A stretch of DNA of 64,000 nucleotides from Macrocystis pyrifera. Its lineage: Eukaryota; Sar; Phaeophyceae; Laminariales; Laminariaceae. Below the pieces are notes generated by a model that was not told the DNA's origin, did not search any database, and saw nothing but the letters and a program-made list of their open reading frames with translations. The stretch spans positions 2,640,320 to 2,704,319 of the forward strand of contig JASSKH010000035.1 of assembly GCA_031763025.1 (NCBI GenBank). Reading direction: 5' to 3'. Of the stretch, positions 1,702 through 24,075 are shown one piece after another. Position 1 is the stretch's first letter. Each line of letters begins with the position of its first letter. The position numbers and the translations under genes were made by a program.

Positions 1702-2200
1702 AGACGCGCCCCAGGAGGTTCTCTCCTGGGGAACAGCAGCCAAAGTGAGCAACAAACGCGGGGTCGGCAGGAAGAGGAGGCGAGACGCAGTACCTACGAC
1801 GCCGCTTCGACAAAGGGCGGGGGCGGCGCCAACAACGACGAGGGCGTCCCGGCGCAGCAGTACAGCAACTTCGCGTTGAGCGCCCTAGATGTGGACACCC
1901 CAAGCAGCGTGGCAGCCGTGGGAGCGGGGGCTAAGCAGGTGTGGGTGCGCGCATTCGTGTGGCACCACACCAGAACCAGTTGCCGCATTCCAGTGGAGGT
2001 GCTGGTCGACACGGGGGCAGGGGGTGGAAATTACTCTTCCGCGGCATTCGTACGCTCCGTCGAACGCAGTGGAAGAGGGGGGCAATCGATGATGAGCCCG
2101 AGGGGACAGGGGTGGTTGAGGGCAGCCAACCCCACGGGCAGCGCAGTCCCGCCAATGAAAATTTCCGGGTCGTGCGAGCTCCCGCTGGTGTTCACCCGGA
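1702..2200 (+). CDS. pol: Pol, spacer and N-terminal half of the aspartic protease
   Basis: This continues the gag frame after the TGA. After a low-complexity spacer (about 1702-1870) comes the retropepsin active-site strand, VLVDTGAGG, near 2001-2030, with the catalytic Asp in D-T-G. The segment KISGSCELPLVF (about 2157-2192) is the flap-to-core part expected next. The other half of the enzyme, ending LIIGAAFL, is found in a different frame from about 2195, so a one-base frame change lies inside the protease. Retropepsin releases Gag and Pol products from the polyprotein. There is no start codon of its own; it would need readthrough of the stop or be dead. Confidence 0.75.
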
Positions 2201-3705
2201 GGACAGGGTGCGCAAGGTATTGGTGCGGGTGGTGGAGGACCTCCCGTACGGCCTTATCATAGGAGCGGCGTTCCTGAGAAAGAATGGCAGCACTATCAGC
2301 TTCGCGGCCGGGGGAGGTTTCAAACCGGCACCAGAGTCACCTTGGGTGCCCTTCATCTCGTCAACGGGAGCCTCCTCGTCAAAGGTGGCGGAGCGGAAGG
2401 CGGTGAGCTGGCATGCGTCTGTCCAACCGAGCAGGGCAGAAGTGGAGCCAGTGGCGACCGGGAACGCGGCAACGTGGGAGCAATTTTGCGCCGTCAAGCC
2501 ACCCTGTGGAGAGGGAGAGCCGGCGGAAATAACCGAGCCGCGCACACAACTAAGCGAGGGCTCAGCGGCCTGGGAGGACGATGGCACCCTACAATGGGAA
2601 CTACGTCCAGCCCGACATACGGTGGTACCGGGTTTCGTCAGCGCGCAGGTGGACGCTTATGCCAAGGGAGTCCAGCCCCAAGACAGGCAGCTGGTGGTAG
2701 TGGAACCGAAGGCTTCATACGACATGGAGACGGGGGCAGAGTTGGGGATCGCGCGCGGGGCGCAGTGGTGGCACCCCGGAACGCCGCTCCAGTGCAAAGT
2801 GGTGAACCGTTCAAAAGTACCCTTAGCGCTGAAGCAGGGCGGGGTCGTTGCTCGGATTTACGCCGTCAACACGAGGGACAAGGAACGGATGCGGATGCTA
2901 TTAGACCCCGTCGTGCAGGCAGAAGGCACATCGGAGATGAAGGAACAGTCAGTGCTGGTGGCGCCGGAGGAACGCGCAGGTGAGGGGGCGGACGCCGACG
3001 GGGTGGACTTGTCGTTGGTCAACATCGCTCAGACGAGTGCCCCAGTGAAGGAAGCCCTGATTCGAGCGTTGGAGAAGTACCGCCATGTGTTCCCGGTGAA
3101 CCCGAAGATTGTCCCGGCCTGCAATCGAACTAAGTTGCAGCTTCCGCTGACTGACAACAGCTGCACGCCCCACGCAGCAAAGCAGCGACGGTATTCGCCG
3201 GAGGAAACGGCCATGATCCAGAGCGAGGTGGCGAAGCAACAGAAAGCGGGGACGATTCGCCGGTCGCAGTCAGCGTGGGCAGCAAACTGCGTCGTTGTGG
3301 CAAAAAAGGATGGCACGGCGAGGGTCTGTCAGGATTATCGAGGGCTGAACGCGCTGCTGGAGTCCAATAGCGGAGGGCTGGGGGATATCGCAAGCATCTT
3401 CGACAACATGAGGGGCGCCACGTGCTTCACGTCCATTGATCTAGCGTCAGGTTTCACCCAGTTGGAAATTGCCGAGGAAGACAAGCACAAGACCGCGTTT
3501 CGTGACGCCCATGGGGAGCTGTGGGAATTCAACCGGTGCGGTTTTGGGCTGAAGACCCTTCCTTCCGGCTTCGCGGCCTATGTGGGGGAGGCTCTGGGTC
3601 CGCTAAAAGGAAAAGGCGTGCAGAACTGGCTTGACGACATCATCATCCACACCAAACACGTCGAGGGACATGTGGATCTGGTGGAGAAGGTGCTGCGCGC
3701 GGCTC
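2195..3705 (+). CDS. pol: Pol, C-terminal half of protease plus reverse transcriptase
   Basis: The frame opens with the second half of the protease (the LIIGAAFL strand, about 2253-2276), then a spacer of about 250 residues, then RT. RT landmarks in order are a KKDGTARVCQDYRGLN block (about 3304-3352), the SIDLASGF catalytic strand with the first Asp (about 3433-3455), the hydrophobic CGFGLKTLPSGF block, and the polymerase box NWLDDIII (about 3625-3648). The box is Trp-Leu-Asp-Asp instead of the usual Tyr/Phe-x-Asp-Asp; both aspartates are present. About 20 codons later the homology jumps to another frame at about 3700-3705, where RT thumb sequence continues. The two frame changes in this polyprotein offset each other. 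Confidence 0.85.
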
Positions 3706-4690
3706 CAGCAATTTGGGTTGTCGGTGAACCTGGCCAAATCGACTTGGTGCGCTCCGCAGCAGGAGTTCGTCGGCATGGTTGTCAGCAGACTGGGCGTACA
3801 ACCGTCAAAAACGAAGATAGAAGCGGTGGCCAGACTCTTTCGCGCTAACACGGTAGAGGAGGTCAGGTCACTTTTGGGCATGGGCAGCTACCTCAGGAAG
3901 TTTGTGCCCGGATACAGCTCGATCGTGGCGCCTATCTCGGACCTACTCAGGGACAAGCGGTTCGCGTCAAAAAAGGCAAGGAGGCTCCGGGTGCCGTGGG
4001 GGGTGGAGCAGGACAAGGCTCTGAAGGCGCTGATCGAGCTCCTCACATCGCCATTGATTTTGGCGTTGCCCAATTGGGAGGCCACGTTTCAACTGCATAC
4101 GGACGCCAGCGAGCTGGGTGCGGGAGCGGCGCTTACGCAGGACACCAGGGGAGAGGAACGTGTCGTTGGATACGCGAGCCACCGGTGGTCAAGGACGGAT
4201 GCCAAACGGTCCGCAACCGAACTAGAGGTGATGGCAGTGTTGTGGGCCATCCAGCATTTCAGACCGTACTTGTGGGGAAGGAGATTCGTTCTGTTCACCG
4301 ACTGCTCCGCGCTCACGTGGCTGTTCAAGAGCCAGGCCCTCTCGTCGAAACTCCACCGGTGGGCGCTCAGGTTGATGGAGCACGACATCGACCTCCAGTG
4401 GCGACCGGGGGCAAACCACCAGCTGCCGGACGCCCTCTCGAGGCTGCCGCCGAACGACGCGCCGCGCACGGACATCGATGACTCCTTCCCAGACGATCCC
4501 TCCACGAGGACCACGTACCGGGGCCCCAAGGGACCGGTGCTCGACGGCGTACTGCTCAGCGAACTGGGGGCAGACGAGGTGAACAAGCCAACGGGAAAAA
4601 ACGCGGCGGTTGCGGCAAGCGTAATTTTTACCCCAGGCGGAGCCGTCGACGCAGACACTGAGAGAGCCGCCACAACATCCGCAGCCGAGG
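3700..4690 (+). CDS. pol: Pol, RT thumb/connection, RNase H and linker
   Basis: The frame runs on uninterrupted to the TAA at 5635-5637. It starts with the end of RT (FGLSVNLAKSTW), then the conserved LLGMGSYLRKFVPGYS connection, then RNase H. RNase H residues visible are the first catalytic Asp in LHTDASELGAG (about 4093-4125), the Glu in TELEVMAVLWA (about 4216-4248), the second Asp in FTDCSALTWL, and the terminal Asp in LPDALSRLP (about 4423-4449). A linker of about 80 residues, rich in Asp, Pro and Thr, then leads into the methyltransferase-like domain instead of the integrase that normally follows. RNase H removes the RNA template during reverse transcription. Confidence 0.85.
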
Positions 4691-5637
4691 AGCATCCAGT
4701 CGCCGTGGTGCTCTGCTGCGGGGGGGGAGGTGGTCTCATGGCGGCGAAGGAGATGGTCGCAGTCAAGGGTGCCACCGACCACGACTGGAGAGCGCTCGAG
4801 TGCGTTAGGGAGAACGGGTTGGACCAAGGAGTTCGACTGGTGAGAGCGGAACCAGGGGGGGAAGATTGCAAAAGGCTCTTGAACGACTTGAGCCCGAGCG
4901 TCGTGATGGGAGATGCATCCAGAACGTCAGGCCAGCGGGGGCCCGGTGGAGCAGCAACCTTGGCAACGAATATCGTGAGGGCCTTCATTGATTCGACGGC
5001 CAGGCTTCTCCTGCTGGAATGCTACCCGAATTTACTTCGATCGACGGAGTGGGGGCAGGTAGTGCTGCCTGCGTTGAAGGAAGCGGCGTGTACGGTGGAG
5101 ACAGTCGAAATGACGGCGGACATCGTGGGGGTTCCGTCGGGGAAGAGGAAGGCGTTCGCTGTCGGCGTGAGGAGCGGGAGGCCCAAAAGGGAAGGAGAGA
5201 GGCTAAGAGAGTGGAGGAGGGATATAGAAAAGCGCGACCCAGGGTGCACATCTCTAGGTAGATTCTTGGGGAGGAGGGGAACCTACTTCCTCAAGCGAGG
5301 CGTGGAAGAGAGGGGGGTCTTTTCTTTTGATGATCCAATCATTTCCATCACTCGAACGCACATTATGGGAGAGAAACCCCCCGAAGGAACGTACATACCG
5401 CACCCTTCGGACGCAAGCGATATCGACCAAGCAGACGAGCTGACTTTTGCGGAATACAAAAAACTCGCCACCGGACGAGCAGACTACCGAGTGCCCCCAA
5501 CCGTCAGCAGGGGAGTAGCGGCCGCGATATTGGCGGACTTTTCATTGCCACCTATGGCGAGAGAGGCCTTGTCGGGGTTGTGGGCAAAGGGGCTGTTGAT
5601 AGACAAAGCCAGGGGGAAGCAGCTCTCACGGAACTAA
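4690..5637 (+). CDS. Cytosine-C5 DNA methyltransferase-like domain inside Ty3 Pol
   Basis: It is fused in frame after RNase H and before integrase. The order of blocks matches C5-methyltransferases. Motif I, the SAM-binding loop, reads AVVLCCGGGGGLMAAKEM (about 4705-4755). The motif IV position reads VVMGDASRTSGQRG (about 4900-4940). The motif VI position reads LLLECYPNLL (about 5008-5037). Motif VIII reads GVPSGKRKAFAVG (about 5128-5166). The end, LTFAEYKKLATG followed by VPPTVSRGVAAAIL (about 5440-5530), resembles motifs IX/X. The catalytic Pro-Cys of motif IV and the Asn-Val after Glu in motif VI are absent, so C5 methyl transfer is unlikely for this copy; SAM binding or a non-catalytic role is possible. 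The call rests on motif order by eye. The frame ends at 5637 and integrase resumes in another frame. Confidence 0.65.
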   Translation, partial: EHPVAVVLCCGGGGGLMAAKEMVAVKGATDHDWRALECVRENGLDQGVRLVRAEPGGEDCKRLLNDLSPSVVMGDASRTSGQRGPGGAATLATNIVRAFIDSTARLLLLECYPNLLRSTEWGQVVLPALKEAACTVETVEMTADIVGVPSGKRKAFAVGVRSGRPKREGERLREWRRDIEKRDPGCTSLGRFLGRRGTYFLKRGVEERGVFSFDDPIISITRTHIMGEKPPEGTYIPHPSDASDIDQADELTFAEYKKLATGRADYRVPPTVSRGVAAAILADFSLPPMAREALSGLWAKGLLIDKARGKQLSRN

Positions 5638-6976
5638 ATCGCTGGAAGGCTTGCAGGCGCTCTTCGAGGAGGACATAGCCGAAGTAACGCCGGCGGTCAC
5701 GAGGTCCAGAGCGGGCGTAGCGGGAGGAAGGTCAACAGAACAGCATGCGCAGGTGCCAAGGCCGCTTGTTACACAGACGACCCCGACAGCACTGCCGTCG
5801 GCATCGCAGATACAGCCCACGGAAAACTTGCCGCCACAGTCCAGAGCACAGCCCCAGCCGAGGCGGCGAGCACCGAGAGCGGAATACTCGGAATACCCGG
5901 GACCCCTTCCTTCCATGGTCGACCAGGTAGCGGAAGTGTTGCGTGATAAGCCACGGCTGGTGCAACGGCAACGGGAGGACGCGCGACTTGGCCCCATTTG
6001 GGGCCGATTGCGAGGAAGAGGTGACAGGCAGTCACCGGAAGGGACGGCGAACTACGTTCTCGACGACAACGACTTATTGTGGAGCGCGCCTCGGGGAGAG
6101 GCACCGAAGTTGGCCATTCCGAGAGCATTAGTGCCAGGGGTGCTGGCACTCGTGCACAGTACCTATGGCCACCCGGGAGTTGCGCGGACCCTGCTGCTGA
6201 TTAAGGGCAAGTACAGATGGCCGACAGTAGCCCAGGACGTCAGGGAGTACGTACTGTCGTGCGGTTGCAGGAGGAGAAAAAGGGCCCGGAGTCAACGCGT
6301 GGCCATGATGCCTGCTCGGTTATTGTGGCCTTGGGAAGTGCTTGAGATGGACCTCCAGGACATGAAGCAGGTATCCAGTGCAGGAAATAGGTACCTGCTG
6401 GTAGTGGTGGATCGGGCCAGCCGGTTCCTGTTTGCGTACCCGCTGGAATCTAAGGATTCGGTGGGAGTGGCGAGGAAACTCCTGGAGCTGTTGCTCACGT
6501 TTGGCGTGCCGCTGTCGATTAGGAGCGATGCCGGGGGGGAGTTCACCGCTAAGGTGGTCGCCCACCTGCGCCAGTGGCTCAGGGTGGAGCTGGATCATGG
6601 TCCTGCGGACCACCCTCGTAGTCAAGGAGCCGTAGAAAGGATGGGGGGTTGGCTTCAGGAGGTCTTGGCAGAGCTTTGCAAATCCTGGCCGGCAAGGTGG
6701 GACGAATATGTAAGCGCGGCTTGCTGGATTCAAAGAACTACGCCGGACCCGCGTCTCCCGTCAGGTGGGACACCCTTCAAGATTCTGTTTGGCCGTGATG
6801 CGCGCACAAACCTGGATGCTCTTACTCCTGCGCTGGACGCAGAAAATTTCCGCACTGGGCTCGACAATTTCGTGGCGGAGAGACACCAGACGTTCATGGA
6901 ACTGCGGGCAATGCTGAAGAAGCGTCAGGAAGACAAGAACAAGCGACGCGTACGCCACAATGCGGCCATTAGGTGA
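5636..6976 (+). CDS. pol: Ty3 integrase (zinc-binding and DDE catalytic domains)
   Basis: A Ser/Arg/Pro-rich spacer precedes the zinc domain, HSTYGHPG followed by YRWP and a Cys-Gly-Cys pair (about 6150-6275); HHCC fingers normally have Cys-x2-Cys, here there is one residue between them. The catalytic triad follows: Asp in LEMDLQDM (about 6340), Asp in IRSDAGGEF (about 6518-6545), and Glu in SQGAVERMGG (about 6623-6650), with the expected roughly 35-residue D-E spacing. The frame differs by one from the methyltransferase-like region, so a frame change lies near 5630. It ends at a TGA (6974-6976) after RHNAAIR, but the same frame continues beyond it into the C-terminal tail. Integrase joins the cDNA copy to chromosomal DNA. 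Confidence 0.88.
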   Translation, partial: KSLEGLQALFEEDIAEVTPAVTRSRAGVAGGRSTEQHAQVPRPLVTQTTPTALPSASQIQPTENLPPQSRAQPQPRRRAPRAEYSEYPGPLPSMVDQVAEVLRDKPRLVQRQREDARLGPIWGRLRGRGDRQSPEGTANYVLDDNDLLWSAPRGEAPKLAIPRALVPGVLALVHSTYGHPGVARTLLLIKGKYRWPTVAQDVREYVLSCGCRRRKRARSQRVAMMPARLLWPWEVLEMDLQDMKQVSSAGNRYLLVVVDRASRFLFAYPLESKDSVGVARKLLELLLTFGVPLSIRSDAGGEFTAKVVAHLRQWLRVELDHGPADHPRSQGAVERMGGWLQEVLAELCKSWPARWDEYVSAACWIQRTTPDPRLPSGGTPFKILFGRDARTNLDALTPALDAENFRTGLDNFVAERHQTFMELRAMLKKRQEDKNKRRVRHNAAIR

Positions 6977-7759
6977 CACTCTCCAGGCGAAGGGGCGCGA
7001 GTGGGAGACCTGATGCTGGTAAAGGAGGCAGACAGCAAGATGGCGCGGGAGGGCACTCACGTCAAACTGGCACATGAACACTGGACGGGGCCGTGGCGGG
7101 TGACGGCCATTGCACAGCCGGGTATCAGCTACCAGGCGACAATGAGCGGCCGCCGGACCCGGAGGAGAACGGTTTCGGCTGCCAACATTAAGGAATTTCA
7201 CGTGCGGCCGGAGCATCTGCGCCATGCCTTCGAGGACGAATTCGCGCATCTGGCATGGGGCGCGGACTTGGGGTTGGCAGACACCTCGACGGTAGCGGTG
7301 CCGCTCTATACCCTGACGGACCGGCGAGCCATGGAGAGCACGGGGACCGGGTGGGAATGGCAGTACCGAGGCCGGTACCAAAGTGGGGTGGAGTCAGAGT
7401 GGCTACCTGAACAGGAAGTGAGGGACAGCTTCACCCCTCTGCAACTCGACGTCTTCCATGCCCTCTGGGAAGTGTACAAGGGAAAGGACTGCCGCCCCCG
7501 GCCGCCGGAACCACTACCGAAGGAAGAGCGTGACCAGGGGGTGCGAACGAGAGCGCTGCAGGACTTTCCGACGGGGACGCAGGTCAGGCGGTCGTTTGCT
7601 GGAGCTGATGGGGTGAGTCGAGCGGCGGTGGGAAAGGTGTACGACTTTAGGGAGCCGTATTGGCGAGTGAGATACCCTAACGGAGATTGGGAGGAGCTTA
7701 ACCGCAGCGAAGTGACTCGCGGGATCGAGGAACACCGGAGCGCCGCGGGCCAGAGATGA
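6977..7759 (+). CDS. Integrase C-terminal tail: GPY/F-like, chromo-like and Tudor-like modules
   Basis: This is the same frame as integrase, after one TGA; the segment after it begins HSPGEGARVGDLMLV, a normal integrase continuation, so the stop looks like a mutation. WTGPWRVTAI (about 7081-7110) resembles the GPY/F module. WEWQYRGRYQSGVESEWLP (about 7351-7410) and the following helix LQLDVFHALWEVY resemble a chromodomain. A last module (about 7573-7720), with AAVGKVYDFREPYWRVRYPN then DWEEL and SEV, has the barrel pattern of Tudor-like domains. Chromodomain tails on Ty3 integrases steer insertion to chromatin; two reader-like modules in series is inference from pattern. It ends with TGA at 7757-7759. 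Confidence 0.7.
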   Translation, partial: HSPGEGARVGDLMLVKEADSKMAREGTHVKLAHEHWTGPWRVTAIAQPGISYQATMSGRRTRRRTVSAANIKEFHVRPEHLRHAFEDEFAHLAWGADLGLADTSTVAVPLYTLTDRRAMESTGTGWEWQYRGRYQSGVESEWLPEQEVRDSFTPLQLDVFHALWEVYKGKDCRPRPPEPLPKEERDQGVRTRALQDFPTGTQVRRSFAGADGVSRAAVGKVYDFREPYWRVRYPNGDWEELNRSEVTRGIEEHRSAAGQR

Positions 7760-8357: not shown

Positions 8358-9410
8358 GGTGAGCCGGCCTCAGAGATCTAACGAGCGCAGGTCCTTCTTA
8401 GGGTCTGAGAGCTGTACCCTGCTGTAACACAGACTCAGTTTTACAAACTGAGAATTGCAAGGTATCAAACGACAGATTAACAAGAGATCGCTGTACCGTG
8501 AAATATTAGAGATCCCTCAAGGAATGCTCTTCTCGTGTTGGAACAGCAGCCAGTATGGTATCTACACTCGTTCCTGCTCTGTCGCCCTCAAGGCATATGC
8601 TCTTGACAAAATGTGCACGTGACGTAGTGTCAAGATCAAGGTTATTAGAGTTGGTACAGCAGTATCTATACTCGTTCATGCTCTATCGCCCTGAAGGCAT
8701 AATACGCTCTTCTTGTGCACTTGACGCTCTTTCATCGCTCGCCCCCAACAAGCGTTTTGGTATTTAACGAGCTATAGCATACTCTTGTGCACTTGTTGTT
8801 GCTGATGTTGTTCTTCGGCGCGATCGTCGCAAGCGCTCCTCGGACCCACTTGGTCCTGCTGCTGCTGTTCTTGCAGACGTGATTGCTGGCTGCTGTTGCC
8901 GTTGCGGCTGCTGCTGCTCCCTGGTGCCATCGCTCTCCCTTCACACTTCACCTCCTCATATATCACCTCATTACCTTGCACCTTCACCTCACTTATCACC
9001 TTGCACCTTCAACATATATATGATCTTCTTGGGGTCCTGCGTGTCTGCTGAAGATGATGTTGCCGTTGCGGCTGCTGCTGTTCCCTGCTGGTGCCATCGC
9101 TCTCCCTTTGCACCTTCACCAGGTCCTCCTCACGTATCACCTCATCACCTTGCACCTTCATCTCACTTACCATCCATCACATTGCACCTTCAACGTATGC
9201 TCTTCTTGTGTGCTATTAATAGGTCTTGATGCGATATCGTAGGTTGATATATGGTACCTGGTATGATGATACTACGGTTTGGCATACTATATGAAAAAAC
9301 CCGGTATGGGATACGGGATATTGTGACGGTATGGTACGGGAAAACACAGTATGTGGTATGATACGTTGGCGGTATGGTTGTTGTTGTTGTTTTCTTCACA
9401 TAAAACCGTT
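8358..9410. other. Non-coding region with two internal duplications
   Basis: No credible gene is visible. Two imperfect direct duplications are. The first has an approximately 70-bp unit beginning TATCTACACTCGTTCCTGCT near 8558 that recurs near 8666. The second has an approximately 150-bp unit (GTTGCCGTTGCGGCTGCTGC, then several CACCTTGCACCTTCA-like steps) at about 8893-9030 and again at about 9058-9205. A GGTATGATAC-like AT/GT-rich stretch follows (9250-9370). Confidence 0.6.
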
Positions 9411-9411
9411 C

Positions 9412-9740
9412 TTTCAACCCGTCGACATCCAGCACAACCAGTGTCCGTGCCGATTCTTCAATCCTAAAAGAGATACAAAATATGTGGTCACAAAGCTACG
9501 CCACAGAGATACTACGTTGCCATGTATGCAGTAAGCACAGTGAGCAAATGCCATGTTATCATGCTGGATACGACAGGCACGACATACACATTCTATGAAA
9601 TAGATAAACGAAAGGAAACAAAGAAATACAAAACAAAGAAGGCAAATCGAAAGAGAAGAAAAAAAAAAAAAAAACAGGAGGAACAAACCGTCGTACCCCC
9701 TCCGCAGGGGATGTGGCAGACACTGAAGAAGAACGAGCTA
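9412..9740 (+). repeat. Dispersed repeat, copy 1 (second copy at 47885-48200)
   Basis: From CCGTCGACATCCAGCACAAC through an A-rich tract to the CCGCAGGGGATGTG block, this segment matches 47885-48200 in order and orientation: the core ACCAGTGTCCGTGCCGATTC is identical, and both have an A-rich stretch with oligo-A runs near the right end. It has no coding potential that I trust. The length of about 320 bp and the A-rich end suggest a SINE-like or non-autonomous element, but no pol III boxes were identified. Confidence 0.65.
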
Positions 9741-9774: not shown

Positions 9775-11772
9775 AGACCAAGAACCAAGGGAAAATAACA
9801 AGCAAACCACAGCACGAAGCACCCTCCAGGTAGCGGCAGCAGTTTGTGGTACGAGTAGCATAGCCAGGTTCTCCCTGCTAGTCCGCCTGGTAATTTGATA
9901 CCCTGACTGCCGTGTCCGTGCTGCGTTCGTCAACTATGCCCAGACCCTCGGCGCCAGACACTACGAAACACGCAAAGCAAGTTCGTCATCTACCCACGCC
10001 ACACGACTCCTTCAATAAGGCTTATCAATCGAGGAAAGGAAGAGAAAGAAATAAAATGAAAATCACAGAGGATCAGCGCAAGAAAGAAAAAAAAAAAAGG
10101 CAAGACAAGACAAGACAAGGGAAGACCACGTGCGAACCAGCTGCAGCTGTTGGTGGCACGGATAGTATAGTCATGTTCTACTTCCAAGTCGGTCTGGTGC
10201 CTTGCTACCCTGTCTACCATCTCCTTCCTACTTTCGTCCTCCGCCGTTTTCCTTCTACTCCTCCTGTTCCCTCCCCTCTCCGCATTCCCTTGCTCGGGTT
10301 TTCTGCCACTCCCCCTGTTGCCCCCCCTCCCCCCATTCCCTTGGACACCACCCGCGGCGGATGCTTGCCTACTCAGCTCAGCCTCAGCCTCGTGCCACCT
10401 TACCATGAACCGTTCGGCAGCTTCAAGGATCCCCCGGTACCACTTCCCCGCCTTTTTCGCTGCAGTGAACCACAGCGCGGTCTCAACACCAAACGCCAAA
10501 AGGGAAAGTCCCGTTGATGCTTCAGTGTCTCGGAACTCCCTAAGGTCTTCGACTATGCATCTATGCCAAGTCTTAAACTGTCCGCTAGGTCTTGGGTTCT
10601 CCCCATCAGCCATCGCCCCGAACATTACCCGACTGGGTAATCGTTCCTTGCTTTGCCGTGCCACGCCCCTCGCAAAGAAGAGCCGCCGTATACGAATGGT
10701 CACTTCGATGCTCTCGTAACGTGTCATCTTGAGGGCCTTCTCGTACGAGAGGGTGGCATGGTCAGTACGAAGTCGGTGCTGGAAGCCAATGACTCGCAAC
10801 AGGACTTGGTGGTGAGCAGTTTGAAGCTTGGCGAGGTGTTCCGCTCTGAGGGTCCACGTCACACACCCGTACAGCAGGGTCTCAATCACCTCGGCCTTCA
10901 GCATTCGGACTTTCAGGCTAAGGGGGGCAGTCGGCCTATAATAAACTCCGGGCTGAACCGTTTGAGGCATGCTCGCATGAGACGGATCCGTCAGTCGATT
11001 TTGAGCGAAAGGTCGGCGTTTTTGTGGATAAGGCTGCCTAGGTATAAGAACTGGGCCGTCTTCTTAAACCTCTGGTCTGCTGCTTCGATGACGAGCAGTG
11101 GTGCGAGGGTTGTCTAGTCTGGTGTTGTAGAAGCATTGTCTCTGTCTTCTTGTCCGACACCGTGATGCCTGCTGCTTCGAAGACAGTCACGATGACTGTC
11201 ATCATTTTCGCGAGCCCTTCAGCCGACTTCGGGACAATTCCTGCGTCATCGGCGTACAACATACCCCATACAACCCTTCGGACGCACGCCAACGGCTCCT
11301 GCTCCTCTGTTCGAACTACTCCAGCATCATTGAGTAGGACCCAATCCCTTACGATGGCTTCGTCCTGGCTGAAGCGTATTATTAATAGTACGACGTGTAA
11401 CGCAGCAGCGAAAAATACGTTGCACCGTTGGACCAACGCCCCGACAGGTAGGGTAGACCGTAACTGGACCAAGTCTGGCGGGAAGGCCTCATAGCCTCGG
11501 TCTTTGTTAGTGGGTGAACTCGCGCAAGTCCCACACTACCCGGGCCTCCCGGGTGGCTATCTCCACCGCACCTGCTCCTCTCGGGGGTTAGGTCGAGTCA
11601 ACGTGCCCAAATGGGCTAAATTGACACGACACGAAATTGGAACGTGGAAGTGTGGTGAGCTCAAGCTTTATTTTTACCAATCTACCGGAGGATTCAAACA
11701 AATACACACACACAGTAACGGTGATAGCACACAGCCTTGTCGCAGCCCCTGCGTGACACCAAACCATTCCGA
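9775..11772 (-). pseudogene. LINE segment 3 of 3: C-terminal reverse transcriptase and 3' region
   Basis: Reading the minus strand from 11772 down, the first residues are FGVTQGLRQGCVLSPL, the canonical RT block that continues directly from the segment ending at 17943 once Copia-1 is removed. An insert of roughly 300 bp (11425-11721) interrupts it. Then come NVFFAAALH and the catalytic box MLYADDAGIV (about 11230-11260, both Asp present). After a frame change the C-terminal part TLLYGCVTWTL (about 10860-10890), typical of LINE polymerases, leads to a basic Gly/Arg-rich tail ending near 10000. The remainder to about 9775 is 3' untranslated. A 5'-truncated copy of the same 3' end sits at 50565-51232. 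The element is dead through nesting and frame changes. Confidence 0.85.
11425..11721. mobile_element. About 300-bp insertion inside the LINE RT
   Basis: On the minus strand the RT reads GCVLSPL up to about 11722 and resumes NVFFAAALH at about 11424; families normally read straight through, so about 297 bp is foreign. The insert has CACACACACA near its right border and, on the plus strand, GGTCGAGTC near 11590, which resembles a pol III B box. A tRNA-derived SINE is one possibility. I see no clear target duplication, and the identity is open. Confidence 0.5.
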
Positions 11773-12165: not shown

Positions 12166-13695
12166 ATGGAGAACAGAGAGGCGTCGATGCTGAACGCCAT
12201 GAGGGACATGATGGCCGAGTTCATGAGGAACAACGGCCGATCGGAGTCCGGCAGCGCTGTGAGTAGCGCTGCTGTAGGGGAGAGCCCACAAGGGGCAGTA
12301 CCCACTGCTGTAAGAGAGATTGCAGCAGAACAAGAGACAAATTTGCGTGAGGGCGCCTCGCCAGATTTGGGAGCAACTGGACGCGGAGGAACTGCGTGCT
12401 GTCGTGTTTGGCCCACCGAGGGGTCATCCAGACCAGCATGGGAGGACAGGAGGATGGGGTGCATACCCTGGCGGTGAGTGGGGGGTGGTGGACTTGACCT
12501 GCCTCTATCGCGCCATTTGGCCTTCAAACACACTCCTGTGCCATCGTTTAGTGGACTAAAATCTGAGTTCAACCCCTGGACAAGAGACGCTCGGTATTAC
12601 GCCAAAGGAGTTGGTTTCTTTTCTGCTTTCGTGTCGGATCCACCACAGTACATTCCCGTAGGGGAATTAGATACCGAAAACTCGATGCTTGTCGCAAGGG
12701 GGTTTAGCCGCGAAAGTGTGTACAGATATACACTGGCATGGAATTTCCTGTCGACGGCCCTCAAGAGCAAGAGCGATAAAAGCATTTTGCATCGGTGTAC
12801 CTCGCCGAGGCAAGCGTGGGACGCTCTCCTTGCGTGGTACGGCCCTCAGACGACGGGGGCCAAATCAGACCTCTCCCGACGCCTTAACAGTTTTAAGATG
12901 GCGCCGGGGAGCAACCCGCTCGAGGAGATGGGCAGGATCGAGGATCTTGCCACGGAAATGCGAACAGCAGGAATGTCAGTAGACGACCACATGCTGTACA
13001 CCATCTTTATTGACGCTCTGCCTGCCGAATACGAAGGGGAGGCTCGGAACCTGGCATCACGTGACAGCATCGGCCGTGATGACATCATCAAGGCTGTTCG
13101 AGAACGGCATCACCGACTTTCTGGAAACAGGAAGAAGGGGTCCAACGCTGGCCACGCAGGCCATGCTATGTACGCCAGCGGCGGCGGCGGTGGCGGTGGT
13201 CGCCGGAAAGGTGGAGGAAATGGCAAAGAAAAAGGTGGACGACGGGGTCACGGACGAGGCGGTAGAGGCTCCAACGAGAACGGTGGTGGCTCGGCCGCGG
13301 CTGCTGGTGGCAATGGCAGCAACGCCAAAGCCGCCAGCGGAAATACTCCAGTGGGCAAGTGTCATAGGTGTGGCAAGAAGGGCCATTGGAGGAGCGAGTG
13401 TACGGCGAAGCTATGCAGTCAATGCCAGGGACGCGGGTACTCTGCCGATGCCTGTCCCACGTCCACGGATCGATGCAGTCGATGCAACGGGCTGGGGCAC
13501 GCTGTTGATGTCTGCCCCTCATCGAAAGAAGAAGCTGTCATGGCGGTGACGAGTAAGGATGGGGCAAGGGACGACGATCCGGAAAAAGGTACGGTCCAGG
13601 CCTCAGCTTTCAAGGCCGAAGAGACAGGCAAGTGGAGCGATGGTTCGGGGGAAGGAGTCTGCTTGGCAGGTAGGAGACGAGGCTTGGATATGTGA
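12166..13695 (+). pseudogene. gag: Copia-1 Gag with three Cys-rich zinc motifs
   Basis: One frame from ATG 12166 to the stop at 13695, broken by a TGA at 12475-12477. The middle (about 12540-13110) is the Copia-type Gag capsid region: PSFSGLKSEFNPW, then CTSPRQAWDALLAWYG and RRLNSFKM, typical of UBN2-like Gag. A Gly/Lys/Arg-rich stretch (about 13170-13340) precedes three Cys-containing blocks: a canonical CHRCGKKGHWRSEC knuckle (about 13360-13401), then CSQCQGRGYSADAC and CSRCNGLGHAVDVC, both also Cys-x2-Cys types. The frame overlaps the start of the protease frame (13559 onward), so a one-base shift separates Gag and Pol. Role: packaging of element RNA. Confidence 0.85.
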
Positions 13696-14257
13696 TAGTG
13701 GTGCGTCTACTCACATGACGCCCTCCGCTGACTGCATGATCAACTATAGAGAATGCGACTTGACTCTCCGAATCGCTGACGGATCCACCCAAGCGATCGA
13801 AGGTAACGGTGACGTTAGCGTTACCTTTCGGTCCGGAAACGGTCCCGTGCACGTGCTGCTTACGAACGTTGCGCACGTGCCGGATCTCCGCTACCGCTTA
13901 TTTCCCCTGCCCACTCTGGTCAAAAACGGCCATACTTTCGAAGGGCGCCCCACGGGGGTTGTAGTCAGGCTCAAGTCAGAGCGTTCGATCGTGTTCCCGT
14001 TGAGTGGGACCCTCTACAGCCTGTACGGCTCCCGGGTCGACCGCAGTTGTGGGGAAAATGCCTGTGCTGTACTCGCCCCAGGACAACTGCCCAACAAGTC
14101 TGCAATAAACATCAACGATTTCCACTGCGCTGCTGGACACTCCCACGAGGTACTACTTCGCAAGACCGCGGAGCAGCAAGGGATTGTCCTCGAGGGAGAG
14201 CTGCTGGAGTGCAAAGGGTGCTCCATGGCAAAGGGTCTCCGCAAAGGTATCAAGTAG
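13559..14257 (+). pseudogene. pol: Copia-1 protease and pre-integrase zinc domain
   Basis: The aspartic protease active site reads WICDSGASTHM with Asp at about 13694, followed by the expected NVAHVPDLRYRLFPLP strand (about 13867-13911). The pre-integrase domain has FHCAAGHSHEVL with two His (about 14120-14155) and CKGCSMAKG with two Cys (about 14211-14238), together a zinc site. A TAG at 14255-14257 ends the stretch, yet the frame continues beyond it with STHTRADKKLGRVFVDLSGP, so the stop interrupts a formerly continuous polyprotein. Confidence 0.85.
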
Positions 14258-15109
14258 TCCACACACACACGAGCAGATAAGAAGCTCGGGAGGGTTTTTG
14301 TGGATTTGAGTGGACCAAAGGTGGTAGAGTCTCTCGGGCGGAAGCGGTATACTCTCATCGTGCGCGACGATTTTTCACGATATACGTGGGTGTACTTTAT
14401 GCGCCACAAGTCAGACGCCGCGGAAATGTTCGAGCAGTTCCTTGCGGATTCTCGTGCAGACGGTGTCCCTTCTACGGTGGTAATCGTCTGATCTGATGGG
14501 GGTGGTGAATTCCGCGGGGGAAAGTTTGGCGACATGTGTAGATCACGAGGGATCAAGCAGGAAGTCACGACGGCCGACAGTCCCCAATTCAATGGAGTAG
14601 CAGAGCGCGCGCTAGGTTTGATAGAGACGGCCGCAATGGCGGGCCGAATCCAGGCTCAAGAGCTTTTCCTTGGCGCGTAACTCCCGGCCACGACGTCGTT
14701 GTGGGCGGAAGCGTCCCACTGGGCGTGTGACGCCTTGAACCGCACAGCAACAACAGCTAACCCGCAGAGCAAGTCGCCGCATGAGATGTGGCATGGTAGC
14801 CCCCCCCCGGTAGTACTACTGCCCTTCCTCAAGCCTGGATATTGCAAGGTGAAGAGGGAAAACAAGTCACAGGCAAAAGCACAAGAGTGCTTTTCCCTTC
14901 GTCCTGCAACAAACTACCCCGGAGACTCAGTACGAGTGCTGACAAAGAACCGCACTGTGCTAATAACGTGCAATATCACCTGGCAACGCGTGTCGCCTGC
15001 ACCACCTGTACCTGCCCAGGCGAATAACACCCTGTCTACGGAAAAGGAGGGGTCAGAGGCAGACGACGTGAGCACGTCGGATCGAGGTGGTGGGGGGGGG
15101 GTGGGATGA
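14258..15109 (+). pseudogene. pol: Copia-1 integrase core, interrupted by stops
   Basis: Same frame as the protease. Catalytic residues: Asp in VFVDLSGP (about 14305), Asp in SDGGGEF just after a TGA (14489-14491), and Glu in FNGVAERALG (about 14590-14620). A further stop, TAA at 14678-14680, follows LGA; the frame then continues WAEASHWACDALNRTATT and LPFLKPGYCKV, normal for Copia integrase C-termini. It leaves this frame inside a run of nine G near 15090-15100, where a slip moves the reading to the next segment. Confidence 0.82.
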
Positions 15110-15992
15110 GCTGGACGACGGTCTGGCTCACTTGAACGACCTCGACGTGACGTGGGGTTTTGACCTGGACGCGTTTATGCAGGATCGCGCACAGCAGGCA
15201 CCTGCCGCCGGCGAGGCCGGCGGCGAAACACCCGAGACGATGGGTTCGTCTCAAGGGGGCGCCGTGGACGCCTCCTCGGTCCCGGGAGGGAGGGCCGAAA
15301 CAGCCGAGACGATGGGTTCGTCTCAAGGGGGCGCCGTGGACGCCTCCTCGGTCCCGGCAGGGAGGGCCGAAACAGCCGAGACGATGGATTCGTCTCAAGA
15401 GGGCGCCGTGGACGCCTCCTCGGTCCCGACAGGGAGAGCCGGAAGCGACCCGGGCGCAGCATCAGCCTCCGACACCGGCCAAGGGGACGGTGAGGATCCC
15501 CCCGCGGTCCTGTCGGGGAGGCCAGCACACGAGCTCAGCAGCTGGGGCCGGCTCCCCCCGATAGTACGGGGCCGGGCCCGGGGTCAGAGCCAACGCCTGG
15601 AGGGTGAACCTGCTGTGCACCAGATAAGGATGGATGAAGGAGCCGCAGACGCGCTGCTTGCGGCAGCGTACGAGTCGTAGACGAAGCCTGGGAGTATGCT
15701 GGATCGTACTTCCTGGACGATGGAGGACGCAGTGGCTTTGATGGCCGGAGGACCTGCTGTGGAGAGCAAAGGGGAGTTGAGTGTGTGCATGCCGAGTGGT
15801 TTCCCGGAAGACTTAGAACCTCCCCCACAGTCCGTAGCAGATGTAGAGCGTTCTCAATACAAAGCGGCGTGGCACGAGGCCATGAAGATTGAGTTGGACG
15901 GTCACAAAACGACCGGTACGTACGAAGCCGCGACACCGACAAAAGGGCGGAAGCCTGTAGGTGCGAAGTGTGTTTACCTACAAGACGGATAA
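15087..15992 (+). pseudogene. pol: Copia-1 integrase-RT linker with 24-residue tandem repeats and RT N-terminus
   Basis: The first part is an acidic linker, not a conserved domain. It holds three tandem 72-bp units (15225-15296, 15297-15368, 15369-15440), each encoding a version of ETAETMGSSQGGAVDASSVP plus four residues. A TAG at 15678-15680 interrupts the frame. After it comes the RT entry block YKAAWHEAMKIELDGHKTTGTYE (about 15858-15925), then KGRKPVGAKCVY before a frame change near 15970. Copia-2 has its own unrelated repeats at the same position between integrase and RT. Confidence 0.78.
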
Positions 15993-17383
15993 GGATGGCT
16001 TGATATTAAAGACAAAGGCCAGACTTGTGGCTAAGGGTTTTAGCCAGGTGCAGGATGTAGATTATTCAAACGTTTGCACCAACTCCCTCGTCAGGGTCAG
16101 TTAAAATTGTGGCGGCTGTTGCAAGTGAATATGGTTTAAAGATTTTTCATCTAGACTTCGCACAAGCTTTTGTTCGCGCGAAACTCGACGCCGAGATATA
16201 CATGAAACTGCCCGGTGGGTGTGGTGACGTGTCAGGAAAGATCGTCCGCCTAAAGAGATCACTGTATGGTCTAAAGCAGAGCGGACGGCAGTGGGCCGGA
16301 TCATTGGTAGAGACCGTGGTAGAGTACGGAATGGAGCAGTGTAGGTCTGACTCGTGTGCGTTTCGCATGGTTGTGGACGGCAAGGTAGAACTGATCGTGG
16401 CCGTTCATGTAGATGACATCGTGATCGCAGGATCGGATGAGACATGTAGAGATTTCCATGCCGCGCTAGCTATGAAGTTTCCCACGAATAACCTCGACGA
16501 ACTGACTTGGTACACTGGTTGTGCTTTCAAACGCGACTGGGAACTAGGGACATTGGAGATTACGCAGAAGGCGTTCATTGAGAGCATGCTGAATCGTTTT
16601 GGTGTTAACTCATCCTCTGATATCCCCGCGACCCCCGGTGTGGAACTAGGTCCAAGAGAGGAGGGTGAACCTGGAGGAGACTGGTCGTACAGGGAGGCTG
16701 TGGGCAGCTTGATGTGGCTGTCGACCATGACGAAGCCGGACATCTCGAACACTGTACGTGCTGTGGCGCGCCACTCCCACACGGAGAGGCACTGGAAGGC
16801 AGTTTTGAAGATTATGGCTTACCTCCACGGGACCAGGTTTATGGGATTGACTTTTGTACGGGGCTCGGGTTTGGATTTGACTGCGTATAGTGATGCTGAT
16901 TATGCGGATAAGTTGAACGATAGGCGCTCGGTATCGGGGACGGTAATTACCCTAGGGGGTGCGGCCGTCAGTTGGGCAAGTAGCACGCAGAGGTGCGTTA
17001 CGTTGTCGACAGCAGAAGCAGAGTATGTCGCCCTAGGTGAAGGGGTGAAGGAAGCTTTGATTACGGGCGCGGTGTTGTCGTTTATCTGTCCAGAGCTAAG
17101 CAGATCATGTGTCCGGGTTTTCGAGGATAACCAGGGGGGCATAGCGTTAGCTGAAAACCTTATTAGTTCTGCTCGGAGGAAGTATATCGACGTGCGTTTT
17201 CATTTTGTCAGAGAGCTACTTCGTGCTAAGAAGATCGATATTCAGTTCGTAGCTTCGGAAGAGCAGCACGCGGATATTTTGACGAAATCCCTCTCTGCGA
17301 CCCCTTTTAAGTCTCATCGTAAGTTCTTGTTGATCTGCCTTTGGAGGGTGAGTGAAGGGTATAATATGAGCATTATTCGATGA
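15970..17383 (+). pseudogene. pol: Copia-1 reverse transcriptase and RNase H
   Basis: A short segment (TYKTDKDGLILKTKARLVAK, from about 15973) shifts frame near 16065, then one frame runs to TGA 17381-17383. RT blocks: FHLDFAQAFVRAKLD (first Asp), LKRSLYGLKQSGRQW, and the polymerase box VHVDDIVIAG (about 16406-16435) with both aspartates intact. RNase H: Asp in YSDADYAD (about 16885-16912), Glu in STAEAEYVALGEG (about 17008-17046), Asp in FEDNQGG (about 17120-17140), then HIDVRFHF-like and ADILTKSL-like ends. This is the least damaged part of Copia-1. Confidence 0.9.
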
Positions 17384-17674: not shown

Positions 17675-17942
17675 TGTTCGTTTGGATCGTTCCAACAGCG
17701 ACGGTTACAAGTTGCAGAGGGTTGCGTATATCTTCGCAGGCGTTATTATGGATTAAGCCGTGTGTTCATGAGGAGAGTTTGAGCACTCCGTTCTCTGCTC
17801 CGTTCTCTGCTCCGTTCTCTGCTCCGAGCTACGAGCTAGGCTCCGCTCTCTCTCCCCTCATATGTCCTCTAATACAACGACTATAAAGAAACTCATCAGA
17901 CCACGTGGTGGTCAGGGCATCCAGGCTTGGACTCTACGAACA
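17675..17942 (+). repeat. Copia-1 3' LTR
   Basis: 268 bp, TGTTCGTTTGG to CTCTACGAACA, preceded by the purine tract AGCCAGGGAGGG that would prime plus-strand synthesis. It differs from the 5' copy mainly in the TCTGCTCC repeat block. The next bases, TCCGA, are the right-hand target-site duplication. Confidence 0.93.
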
Positions 17943-19774
17943 TCCGAGTGCTCGCCGCCATCAGTACGCACGCGAGCCCGCATGCCATCGTGGACATTAC
18001 AGATAATTCTTAGCATCTTGGTTGGAACGCCGAAGCGTGTGAGTACCTCCCATAACAGGTCTCCATCGACAGAGTCGTACGCTTTCTGCAGATCGATGGA
18101 GCACACGTACAGGGGGGTTTTCGTCTGTCGTCCGAGCCCTTGCAAACGGCGCACGACAAACAACATATCAATTATTGATCGTGCGGGGCGGAAGCCGCAC
18201 TGTTCTTCCGGGAGTACTTCCTCGGTCTCGCAATAGTTGCTGAGGCGGGATGCGACGATTTTCAACAAAACTTTGCCTGCGTCGGCAACAAGCGAAATCC
18301 CTCGGTAGTTGTTGCAGTCAATTCGGTCCTTCTTTTTGTGAAGGACCTTGATGATCGCATCTTTCCATTGTTGGGGAACTTCTCCTGTTACCCAAACATT
18401 GACAAGGATGTTGTGAAAACACTGGGCGAATGCGGGGTGGTCGATCTTCAGGAGTTCGGCCGGGAGACCATCTGGCCCGACAGCTCTCCAATTTGACATC
18501 CCCTTGAGTGCTTCCGTCTTCTCGTCCATGAATAGTTCATCTCCGAGCGACAGTTTAAGCGGTCGTAGTGGCAAGAGGTCGATGATCGTGGGATCGAGTT
18601 TTAGCGATTTTGTGTTCAAGTTGTTGTGGTAACCCCCCCCCCATCGTTCACGAATTCGCACCTTATCCCGCAACAACGGGCCATCCTCGTCCCTAATGAA
18701 CTGTTCGCTCCTCGCTTTAGTCCTTTCCAATCCTACCGTACTCTTAAGGTGCTTGTAAAAAGCCTCTCTGGTCGTTGTTCGCTAGGAGTCGTTCGGTTTC
18801 GGCGAGGTACGCTTCGAAGTACGGATGCAGTCCTGCGGCAATCACCGTCTGCAGGTTCGCACACGCAGATCTCAGTGTCTTCCACGCGGTTCTATTCCGG
18901 GGGTGGGCACGCAAGAATTGTCGTCCATCCTCCCTCGCTGCCCATGCTAATATGAATGCGGCCAAGCGTTCGGCGGGGTCACACCATCCATGTCTGCGGT
19001 GGTGACGTGGATGGGGTGGTACCCCTTTTCCGACCGCATCAATAATAAACGTGGTGAAAACCTCATCCATGCCAGACGTACTACGGGGCTGGATAAGCTG
19101 GTTGAGAGCGGAAATGACCCTCGCGACTACTCGTTCACGACACTTTTCATCGGACATAAAAAGCTTCCTGTCGAACTCTCGGCATTTTGTCGGTCTACGT
19201 ATTTGTCTGTTGGGCGCAGAGTGACCACTGAGTCGGACTTTGATATACAAGATGTTGTGGTCTGAGTCAGCCTTAGCTGGGGCAGAAAACTGTGGGACGA
19301 CTTTAGCATCTTGTACTCTAGGTCGATGGGCTTGATGAGCTATTAATAGGATGTTGTCGATCCGCTTACGGTCATTCGGGCTGGTGCCGTTGTGTGTATG
19401 CGATATCACATCCTTGCGCGTGCTGAAAAACGTGTTGATGAGACCAATCGGTGGCGAAGGACAAGAGTCGCTCGCCATTATCGTTACGAACATCACGTCC
19501 ATATGCTCCAAGCACTCTACTTTCATCAACACCGCACCCTTCCATCATCTGTCCAGTTCGCGCGTTGGCATCCATCAGTACAAACAGACACTCTTTCGTC
19601 GGGATCTTTTCCACTAAGTCCTCCAGCTTCGGCCAGAAAATACGTTTTAGTTCGGCATCCTTGGTACAATCAGTTGGAGCATACGCAACGATGAAATTAA
19701 CTGCCTCCAATTAATGCCAGCTCAAATCGCATAGACATAAGCTGTTTGTCAATGAATTGATGAGCGTACACAGA
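17943..19774 (-). pseudogene. LINE segment 2 of 3: end of APE endonuclease and N-terminal half of RT
   Basis: Reading from 19774 down, after a short stretch with FIDKQLMSMRFELA comes NFIVAYAPTD and LMDANARTG, endonuclease motifs (about 19530-19705). The end of the endonuclease follows in another frame: RIDNILLIAHQAHRP and ADSDHNILYIKV (about 19270-19390), with the catalytic SDH. Then linker and RT from about 18730: [40 protein letters not shown], and [16 protein letters not shown] with the first RT Asp (about 18060-18100), ending at RTDGGEHS where Copia-1 cut in. Several frame changes are present. It rejoins 26415-26765 upstream and 11772 downstream. Confidence 0.88.
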
Positions 19775-20070: not shown

Positions 20071-20145
20071 CACTAGTGAGTCCGGCGATCTTCTGTTGGC
20101 AAGCATAGCCAAGGCCAACCTAGAGAGGTGGGAACCTGCTTCGGC

Positions 20146-21666
20146 ATGCCTAGTTTCGAGGATATGCCCAGTCAAGAAGCCAGCGTGGAGAGTGAAAAGA
20201 TCATAGAGGAGATGAGGAAGAAAATAGAGGTCCAGGAAAGGACGATGGAGGATCAGAGACTACGCGCCAAGAGGGACGCGCAGGGAGCAGGAAAGGAAGG
20301 GGGGGGCGGTGGGGGGACGAGAGGAGAAGGAACTGCTGGAAGACAACAAGCAGCGTCGACGGTGCCGACACCTGGGCTGGAGACCCGATCAGGCATGTCA
20401 TTACCTTCTTTGTACCGCCCAAGTTTGTTCCAGTCGAGACCCCCGAAGTTCGATAATGTAGAGGCCCACTTTAGCATGTGGCGTAGTAAGTTTTTGGCAT
20501 CATCGCTTGGGTGCTTGCATGTACTCAGTAGCACAGCAAACCCAGTTATGGTGGGTGACATGAGGGTTTCGCCGGACGAATTAGCCTCCAGACATTCCCC
20601 CCAGGAGATTAGGGACGCGCGATTGGTGTATGGATTGATGATGGAGGCCATGACAGGATACGATATGGCTGAGTTTAGAATGCAGAAGGCAATGTCTCCG
20701 AGTGGTGCTTGGAAGGAGTTGGAAGACTATTACATGCCGAAGACGATAGCAGCAACACACAGATTGAGGAGGGAGTTTGATACCATCCGAATGGCTGAGG
20801 ACAAAAACCCCTGGCTGTTCCTCGGAAGGGTGGACAAGGCAGCAGATGAACTGGCGATGTTAGGATGTGGTAAGAGTGCAGAGGAAGTAAACCGCCTCAT
20901 TGTTACCAACCTCTCATATTTGTATACTATTCAAAGCAAATCAATTCTTTCCCGCCCTTCCATCCCCCGTTCCGAGATCGATGACATCATCCGTGACGCG
21001 TATGCAAACGACAAGGTAGAGAAGGAGATGGTTTCTAGGGCGTTGGGCGTGCAGGGAGTGGTAGATCAGCATGCCTTGTACGCCGGAGGTGCGCAGCCTG
21101 CCGGTGGCGGAGGTGCGGGTCCAGGAGGGGGAAGGAGGAACAGGAGAGGCGGGAGGCTCAAGGATGGGCAACAGCAGCAGCAGCAGCAGCAGAGACAGTA
21201 TCAACAGTAGCAGCAGCAGCCCCAGCAGCAGCAGCAGCAGCAGCAGCAGCTCCAGCGACAGTATCAGCAGCAGCAGCCCCAGCAGCAGCAGCAGCACCAA
21301 CGGCAGCAGCAGCAGCCCCAGCATCAGCAGCAGCAGCACCGTCCCCATCAGCAACGTGGCAACCGGGGAGGAGCTTCGTCGGGGGGGACAACCGGCCCCA
21401 AATGGCGTTGGGATGCCGTGGCCTGCAGGTACCGTTGGGATGACTCAGCCCCAGACCCCTTCGGTACGGGTGGAGTAGTCCCCCCCATGGGTCGGGTACC
21501 TACCGACCCACCACCAGAGACGTTGCCGCCGATGCCCCCGCCGCCCGCAGCGGCTCCGACAGGCTGGGGCCTCCCACCGAATAACACATGAAGGCGCAAG
21601 GGGCCCTGCTTCCGGTGCGGCAGACCGGGCCACCACGCCGCGGAATGCCAGGCAGGTCCCGCGCAA
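20146..21666 (+). pseudogene. gag: Copia-2 Gag with poly-Gln tract and zinc knuckle
   Basis: The first in-frame ATG is at 20146. The N-terminus is a charged coiled-coil-like stretch (SEKIIEEMRKKIEVQERTM), then a Gly-rich segment, then UBN2-type Gag (about 20400-21070: PPKFDNVEAHFSMWRSKF, then YYMPKTIAATHRLRREFDTI). A CAG microsatellite (21163-21350) encodes long Gln runs and holds a TAG at 21208-21210 in place of one CAG. The frame continues through a Pro-rich region, a TGA at 21589-21591, and the single zinc knuckle CFRCGRPGHHAAEC (about 21605-21646), then into Pol. Gag and Pol are thus a single frame apart from these two stops. Confidence 0.85.
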
Positions 21667-23408: not shown

Positions 23409-23439
<31 letters not shown>

Positions 23440-24075
23440 TCGCCGTCACCGTCACCGTCGCTGCCGCCGTCATCGTCACCGCCGCCGCTACAGCCACCGT
23501 CACCGCCACCGCCGTCGCCGCTGTTATCATCGCCGTCGCCGCCGCAGCAGTCACCGCAGCCACAGCTTTCGCAGCGTGCTGCCCGGGCACTGGATTCTTA
23601 TATTCCGGACCCGGAGGATGGCGATGTTCTGAGGGGGCGGACAAGGGGGGAGACTGCACGACACCAGGAGAGCGGTGGCGCTGTGCAGAGAGGGCGGACT
23701 AAGGGGGAGACCGCACGACACCAGGAGGGTGGTAGCGGTGTGCAGGGTGATCGGGCCAGCGGGGAAGCTGGGCGACACCCGGAAGGTGGAGATGTGCTGA
23801 GGGGGCGGACGAGAGGGGAGACTGCGTGGAACCGCCAGGCTACGGCGCATGGGCTGCTGTCGTTGATGGCAGCACGGGAAGGTACAGGCCATGTACTTTT
23901 CCACCAAGCCCCACCGCGCGAGAACTCTCCCCTTCCCACACGCCCGGCGAGCGAGCGCCGAACTCGTATGCTGAAGCGTGTGCGGACGAGTATTCGGCCA
24001 CCTGGAGACAGGCGATGGACAAGGAGTACCATGGGCTGGCGGACGCGGGGACGTTTGGAGCGACGTAGCAACTAG
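21667..24075 (+). CDS. pol: Copia-2 Pol: protease, integrase and Pro-rich/repeat linker
   Basis: Protease: WVADSGATFHVTG with Asp at 21952, then VAYVPGVRFNLFSLH. Pre-integrase zinc site: HVALAHSHADTL and CAGCSEAKG. Integrase triad: Asp in LFVDLSGQQ (about 22540), Asp in RSDNGTEF (about 22729-22752), Glu in HDGVVERRIA (about 22828-22857). After KPFVGLLPSEEE the protein becomes a run of about 100 Pro/Ser residues (23270-23560, CCG-rich), then four imperfect units of about 19 residues around GRTRGETARHQEGG (23617-23840). The RT entry block lies in a different frame (about 23955-24068), so a frame change occurs in the linker near 23850-23950 and the last 75 or so residues before the stop at 24075 are out of frame. 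Confidence 0.88.

Follow-up and report, generated by a model that had tools for sequence, protein, structure and literature searches.

A Ty3/gypsy retrotransposon of the kelp Macrocystis pyrifera carries, between the RNase H and the integrase of its polyprotein, an additional domain that profile comparisons firmly support as a descendant of the C5-cytosine methyltransferases. The domain recurs in many copies across the kelp genome, in two families that have lost different catalytic residues, and a related element has the corresponding site empty. We consider it reasonably likely that a captured methyltransferase has here become a non-catalytic binding module of Pol that is kept by selection.

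The window analyzed is a stretch of 64,000 nucleotides, and its left 8 kb are occupied by the element, whose 5′ end lies outside the window (Table 1). The order of the Pfam matches (reverse transcriptase, RNase H, integrase), found both in the window and in a second copy (L021), is that of Ty3/gypsy elements (Metaviridae). RNase H and the domain share a single frame, 3631–5637 (+), as the first-pass annotation had stated, and this frame ends at the stop codon at the domain/integrase boundary. The copy in the window is broken: its reverse transcriptase lies in a different frame from RNase H, and a second stop is present at 6974–6976, 3′ of the integrase. The motif LVDTGAG, in the open frame downstream of the gag-like frame, is one that we take to be protease-like. 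With 20.7 bits, the Tudor-like match near the pol C-terminus (E 3.7e-4) does not reach the curated cut-off of 27.2. The 9.9-kb stretches L021 and L022, which may fall short of the element ends, contain no direct repeat of length 60 or above. The gag-like frame contains a perfect 24-nt tandem duplication at 1125–1172.

Table 1. Features of the domain-bearing Ty3/gypsy element in the window (window coordinates).
Feature	Position	Strand	Evidence and remarks
Gag-like frame, 566 aa	1..1701	+	Truncated on its 5′ side at the window edge; named from position only; no Pfam match
Protease-like stretch	1876..2262	+	Open frame; no Pfam match
Reverse transcriptase (matched stretch)	3300..3701	+	PF00078, E 2.1e-11, residues 454–587 of frame 1941–3845
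RNase H	3997..4380	+	PF17919, E 3e-27; PF17917, E 2.1e-30
Linker	4381..4689	+	Mostly common to the domain-free sister element; alignment with L002 stops 16 residues short of the domain
C5-methyltransferase-derived domain, 315 residues	4690..5634	+	Profile searches with controls; catalytic residue counts
Stop codon at the domain/integrase boundary of the window copy	5635..5637	+	Absent from, e.g., L002 and L021
Integrase-bearing frame (zinc-binding H2C2 and catalytic core)	5651..6976	+	PF17921, E 1e-11; PF00665, E 1e-10
Pol C-terminal part	7001..7759	+	Weak Tudor-like match at 7574–7717, PF21743

The motifs of the domain in the window copy run in the order I-like (GGGGG), IV (GDASR, with Ser at the position of the Cys), VI (LEC) and VIII (SGKRK), followed on the C-terminal side by a TRD/IX-like stretch (VFSFDDP...PHPSD) and an X-like end (VPPTVSRG). 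The motifs quoted in the first-pass annotation, namely CCGGGGGLMAAKEM, GVPSGKRKAFAVG, VPPTVSRGVAAAIL and the motif VI Glu in LLLECYPN, were all found in the domain. A structure model predicted from the single sequence was of poor quality, with a mean pLDDT of 36.

From this motif order, a C5-methyltransferase-like domain between RNase H and integrase had been proposed, with a Pfam search against PF00145 as one half of the check. That search returned no match up to E 10 with the window domain, and PF00145 matched none of the 11 members of the kelp domain alignment. NCBIfam gave no relevant match to the domain. Solved protein chains gave none up to E 10 with the kelp domain profile, and only two unrelated chains (E 0.12–0.13) with the single domain sequence. 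In PHROGs, a DNA methyltransferase family was matched weakly (E 0.05–0.12). Such results would suit a stretch that is merely an unrelated glycine-rich linker with a chance resemblance to methyltransferases, but the profile evidence below, which is colinear over 272 columns and significant in both parts of the domain, makes that explanation barely credible.

The entry point was a sub-threshold tblastn match (E 0.1) between the domain and a phage contig, MT837117 (L068), which encodes two tandem C5-methyltransferases with intact motifs. A profile of these L068 enzymes matched solved C5-methyltransferases (M.HaeIII, E 7e-28; M.HhaI, E 3.5e-25; DNMT1, E 5e-23). The two phage genes, at 45–1759 of L068, overlap by four bases and are 48% identical; the contig derives from human faecal samples. 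A viral profile was built from 53 C5-methyltransferases, comprising the two L068 proteins and 51 loci on viral contigs, four of which held a stop that was written as X. These loci came from 80 listed of the 159 relatives found, with 29 near-duplicates or partial matches left out by eye.

With this profile, hmmsearch matched the window domain at E 6e-12, compared with 0.4 for the best shuffled decoy. The target set comprised 17 copies of the kelp domain, 2,000 shuffled versions of it, and 775 open frames drawn from the window and from sibling loci, of which some include the domain. Profile–profile alignment with hhalign gave a probability of 98.9% (P 2.3e-17) over 272 columns, with a score of 122.4; 100 column shuffles reached at most 26.4 and the reversed profile 12.8, and profiles of integrase and RNase H from the sibling loci scored 13.1 and 11.3. 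Residues 1–165 and 166–300 of the domain were significant when aligned alone (P 3e-10 and P 2.5e-8, respectively). The first-pass assignment of the domain is thus upheld, by the viral profile in place of PF00145, and homology along the motif order from I to X is firmly supported at the level of sequence.

A profile of 14 sequences, made from Dcm-like and other phage enzymes, matched only at E 0.04, and of the groups tested as profiles, this phage set and the viral-contig set, the L068-like enzymes are the nearest. In a tree of C5-methyltransferases, with SC99 left out, the kelp domain lies on a very long branch (3.33) and its place is unsure; we therefore name no donor. Neither the domain nor the integrase picked up a relative in viral_contigs, and the kelp domain profile picked up none in genome_contigs. 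The L068 enzymes and the kelp domain are colinear, and the L068 signature RRxVFSIDEPxxTIRGxxRPIP..Y..HPxD has its kelp counterpart in VFSFDDPIISITRTHI..PHPSD. The L068 enzymes contain GGPPCQDYS or GGPPCQDFS, ENV and PQARKR, whereas the kelp domain has none of these complete.

To determine how widely the domain occurs, the kelp genome assembly (537,376,219 bases in 223 contigs) was searched with it. With 126 of 247 candidates scored, there were 133 matches, among which a single copy can be represented by several pieces. Of 60 loci taken from this genome, 49 could be aligned across 85% or more of the domain; dropping L069 and L070, which repeat L009 and L010, left 47 distinct loci, some of them frame-broken inside the domain. 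The window family, here called family 1, accounts for 44 of these 47. About 30 copies are 92–98% identical in the domain, and many copies are free of stops within it. In L021, a single 1,940-codon frame extends from reverse transcriptase to the Tudor-like match, with RNase H, the domain and integrase between them, and another copy sits in a frame 2,019 codons long. The Tudor-like match of L021 (PF21743, pol residues 1880–1927, E 5.3e-4) is again below the curated cut-off, and none was found up to E 0.1 in the family-2 frame of L009.

The family-2 domain is approximately 40–41% identical to that of family 1 and has the same order of RNase H, domain and integrase. Identity between the families varies by segment, from 53% in motifs I–III and 47% in TRD/IX to 29% in motif IV and 10% in the C-terminal tail.

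Relatives without the domain were sought with the window integrase, which retrieved families at 72–76%, 61–66% and 58–59% identity (144 of 4,365 candidates scored). The domain was not detected in the linkers of nine elements from these families (kelp profile, best E 0.13; viral profile, best E 3.5), nor in five informative, more distant Ty3 elements (best E 2 and 0.15). The distant set was six elements fetched from 150 listed RNase H places (2,579 candidates), one of which, L184, was masked downstream and uninformative. The closest family, at 72–76% integrase identity, is a multicopy, domain-free sister (L187–L190). A local alignment over the whole site scattered across the domain, and the upstream and downstream parts were aligned separately instead. 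In L189, the upstream linker aligns with that of the domain-bearing copy L002 up to a point 16 residues ahead of the domain, and the alignment resumes 15 residues past it; L189 has 38 residues in place of approximately 343 in L002, and is an empty-site relative. Comparison of RNase H sequences left the two domain-bearing families and the domain-free sister unsplit, so that a gain followed by loss in the sister and a gain after the split both remain.

The catalytic positions were then counted in both families. None of the 44 family-1 loci has Cys at the motif IV position; 40 have Ser, with V, F, P and a gap once each, and some of these non-Ser exceptions fall where the frame is broken. At motif VI, 40 of the 44 loci retain the Glu, while the Asn and Val of ENV are replaced. 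Both Arg positions of motif VIII are Lys, in 41 and 42 of the 44 loci. Because the nucleophile is absent and motif VIII is altered, methyl transfer is unlikely in family 1, as judged from these residues.

Family 2 shows another pattern. Of 11 readable loci, 10 have the Cys, with Ala and Arg as its neighbors where Pro and Gln would be expected, and the remaining locus has V at a frame break; the motif IV Pro and Gln are thus changed in both families. At the Glu position, 12 loci carry Gln (nine), Arg, a stop and Glu (one each), and motif VIII is mostly RKR. One frame-broken family-2 locus, L076 (G000:C195:1697791-1698650), differs from its siblings in combining the Cys, the Glu and the arginines of motif VIII, and catalysis may therefore persist somewhere. 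Most simply, all three were still in place in the ancestor common to both families, and the two families have since lost different ones.

One alternative is that the domain is still an active, if unorthodox, cytosine methyltransferase whose target is the cDNA of the element itself; such self-modification has been proposed for the DNMT-bearing retrotransposons found in dinoflagellates and in one charophyte. Descent from C5-methyltransferases, the retention of Glu in most family-1 loci and of Cys in most family-2 loci, and the better conservation of the cofactor-side motifs are in its favor, as is the reported activity of some retrotransposon DNMTs in yeast (PMC5890265, from the part of that paper available). 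It is set against the lack of Cys throughout family 1 and of Glu in all but one family-2 locus, and against the replaced Pro and Gln. Nor is CpG depleted: the observed/expected ratio is 0.95 in the element and 0.97 in the rest of the window. Taken together, we judge such an enzyme distinctly improbable.

The host setting bears on the same question. PF00145 matches in the kelp genome itself are limited to two exon-sized pieces on one contig. One of them (SPPCQPFCRIG...ENVRGFE) is presumably DNMT2, judging by its motifs. Brown algae are reported in a 2026 survey to lack DNMT1, DNMT3 and DNMT5 and to keep only DNMT2, while the sister Schizocladia has DNMT1 (PMC13076208, accessible portion); early-branching brown algae with DNMT1 are mentioned in the available part of another study (PMC12344493). 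In Saccharina, approximately 1.4% of cytosines are reported as methylated, with DNMT2 genes only (PMC6916402, likewise in part). The first-pass idea that the element's own methylation-related protein could influence its silencing finds no support here as far as methylation by the domain is concerned: family 1 lacks the Cys, CpG is not depleted, and the host group is reportedly DNMT2-only. The capture of the domain may even be older than the disappearance of DNA methylation from brown algae.

We next asked whether the domain is under selection. Among 30 family-1 copies, mostly the best-scoring ones, singleton changes comprised 165 replacement (N) and 60 synonymous (S) changes, near the expectation of 2.6 to 1 without constraint. 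Shared changes comprised 30 N and 28 S, with fewer replacements than among the singletons (Fisher p 0.0023, in a test run without a tree). Between the families (L002 versus L009), synonymous sites are saturated (pS 0.77), and pN is 0.40 for the domain, 0.30 for RNase H and 0.24 for integrase. On the same 10 copies, singletons were 39 N and 21 S in the domain and 22 N and 24 S in integrase, from which the domain is the less constrained of the two; the shared changes (4 N and 3 S, and 1 N and 1 S, respectively) are a class too small for a test.

Pooled dN/dS among young copies was 0.49 for the domain (eight copies, and also 0.49 in 28), 0.27 for integrase (eight copies) and 0.80 for RNase H (seven copies, with few changes). 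With four copies added, one or more of them frame-broken, the values were 0.66, 0.54 and 0.77 for domain, integrase and RNase H, respectively, and the domain compared with older copies, several frame-broken, gave 0.41–0.86. The domain thus seems to be kept by selection, under weaker constraint than the core enzymes.

A decaying passenger or spacer, captured once, without present function and carried since because it is harmless, would account for the lost catalytic residues, the existence of sister families without the domain, a constraint below that of integrase on the same copies, and a C-terminal tail that is only 10% identical between the families. It accords poorly with the depletion of replacements among shared changes, with 40% domain identity between families whose synonymous sites are saturated, and with the stop-free domain of many copies; we regard it as unlikely, though less so than an active enzyme.

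For the preferred reading, a retained binding module, the following course is proposed. A Ty3/gypsy lineage in the ancestry of the kelp would have taken a C5-cytosine methyltransferase into the RNase H–integrase linker of its Pol. At least two families now carry the domain, and the catalytic part lost differs between them: family 1 lacks its Cys nucleophile together with the arginines of motif VIII, whereas family 2 lacks the Glu of motif VI (11 of the 12 loci). The best-kept parts are the cofactor-side motifs I–III and the target-recognition side, which, by the known C5-methyltransferase motif order, would face the cofactor and the DNA. The domain may then serve, in the integrase-side product of Pol, as a module that binds nucleic acid and perhaps also S-adenosylmethionine, and it could aid the cDNA–integrase complex, alongside the possible C-terminal Tudor reader; multicopy sister families nevertheless manage without this domain.

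The first-pass annotation had stated that retrotransposons with DNA methyltransferases exist, and this is correct: they are described in dinoflagellates (LINE and DIRS) and, as the one Gypsy case, in Klebsormidium, with Dnmt3 in Pol (PMC5890265, in the part available). According to the same portion of that paper, KnitGypsy-Dnmt3 of Klebsormidium nitens resembles the kelp element in being a many-copy Gypsy whose Pol frame includes a C5-methyltransferase domain and in its reported purifying selection, signs of which are seen in the kelp domain too. It differs in being a Dnmt3 with conserved key residues and a methylating host, whereas the nearest group to the kelp domain among those tested is on viral contigs, its catalytic residues are gone, and its host group is reportedly DNMT2-only. 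SymbioLINE-Dnmt and SymbioDIRS-Dnmt3 of Symbiodinium are likewise retrotransposon-borne C5-methyltransferases, but belong to the LINE and DIRS classes and keep their functional residues; SymbioLINE is CpG-depleted and the SymbioDIRS domains are active in yeast (PMC5890265, same portion). The kelp domain thus shares with the group of de Mendoza 2018 a C5-methyltransferase domain inside a retrotransposon coding region, and departs from it in the key functional residues, which are conserved in that group.

Among brown algae, Gypsy-10_Ec32 of Ectocarpus is a Gypsy element with a C-terminal Tudor domain, where the kelp element has its weak Tudor match, and the kelp elements may belong to a Gypsy-10_Ec32-like Tudor lineage. 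The accessible part of that Ectocarpus survey reports chromodomains, Tudor domains and NADAR domains among Gypsy elements, and a methyltransferase of the N4/N6 type carried by a Sola DNA transposon; it names no methyltransferase domain in Gypsy elements, and no C5-type domain (PMC12477816). A 2019 opinion article states, in its available part, that Ty3/Gypsy- and DIRS-clade retrotransposons with DAM or DCM methylases are also present in stramenopiles, with the element unnamed (PMC6338049), and the general idea is therefore already in print for this supergroup. Among the open-licence papers listed by the literature searches, titles and the beginnings of abstracts mentioned neither a brown-algal Ty3 element with a C5-methyltransferase-derived domain nor an inactive one in a polyprotein.

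On this basis we tentatively propose, with somewhat less confidence than the binding role itself, a class of pseudo-methyltransferase retrotransposon domains: a fossil enzyme reused non-catalytically in the integration machinery, with parallel catalytic loss in two families and an empty-site sister, and missed by PF00145 surveys. DNMT-bearing retrotransposons are few, and self-methylation had been suggested for them. In the kelp, the domain seems to outlast its own catalysis in a lineage reported to be without DNA methylation. Carrying a methyltransferase-derived domain is thus separable from methylating, which directs attention to a testable role in structure or binding. A DNMT census based on PF00145 can miss divergent members, and captures in eukaryotic retroelements may be undercounted.

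The remainder of the window contains further repeats. Two Ty1/copia pieces, at 12478–17380 and 20080–25388 (+), both contain RVT_2 and a copia gag-like match (PF14223, below the curated cut-off in the second), and the second also contains an integrase core. An RVT_1 fragment (E 6e-17) lies between them at 17915–18781 (−). A pair of repeats at 9781–10449 and 50575–51233 is 79% identical, and a neighboring pair at 9389–9728 and 47865–48203 is 77% identical.
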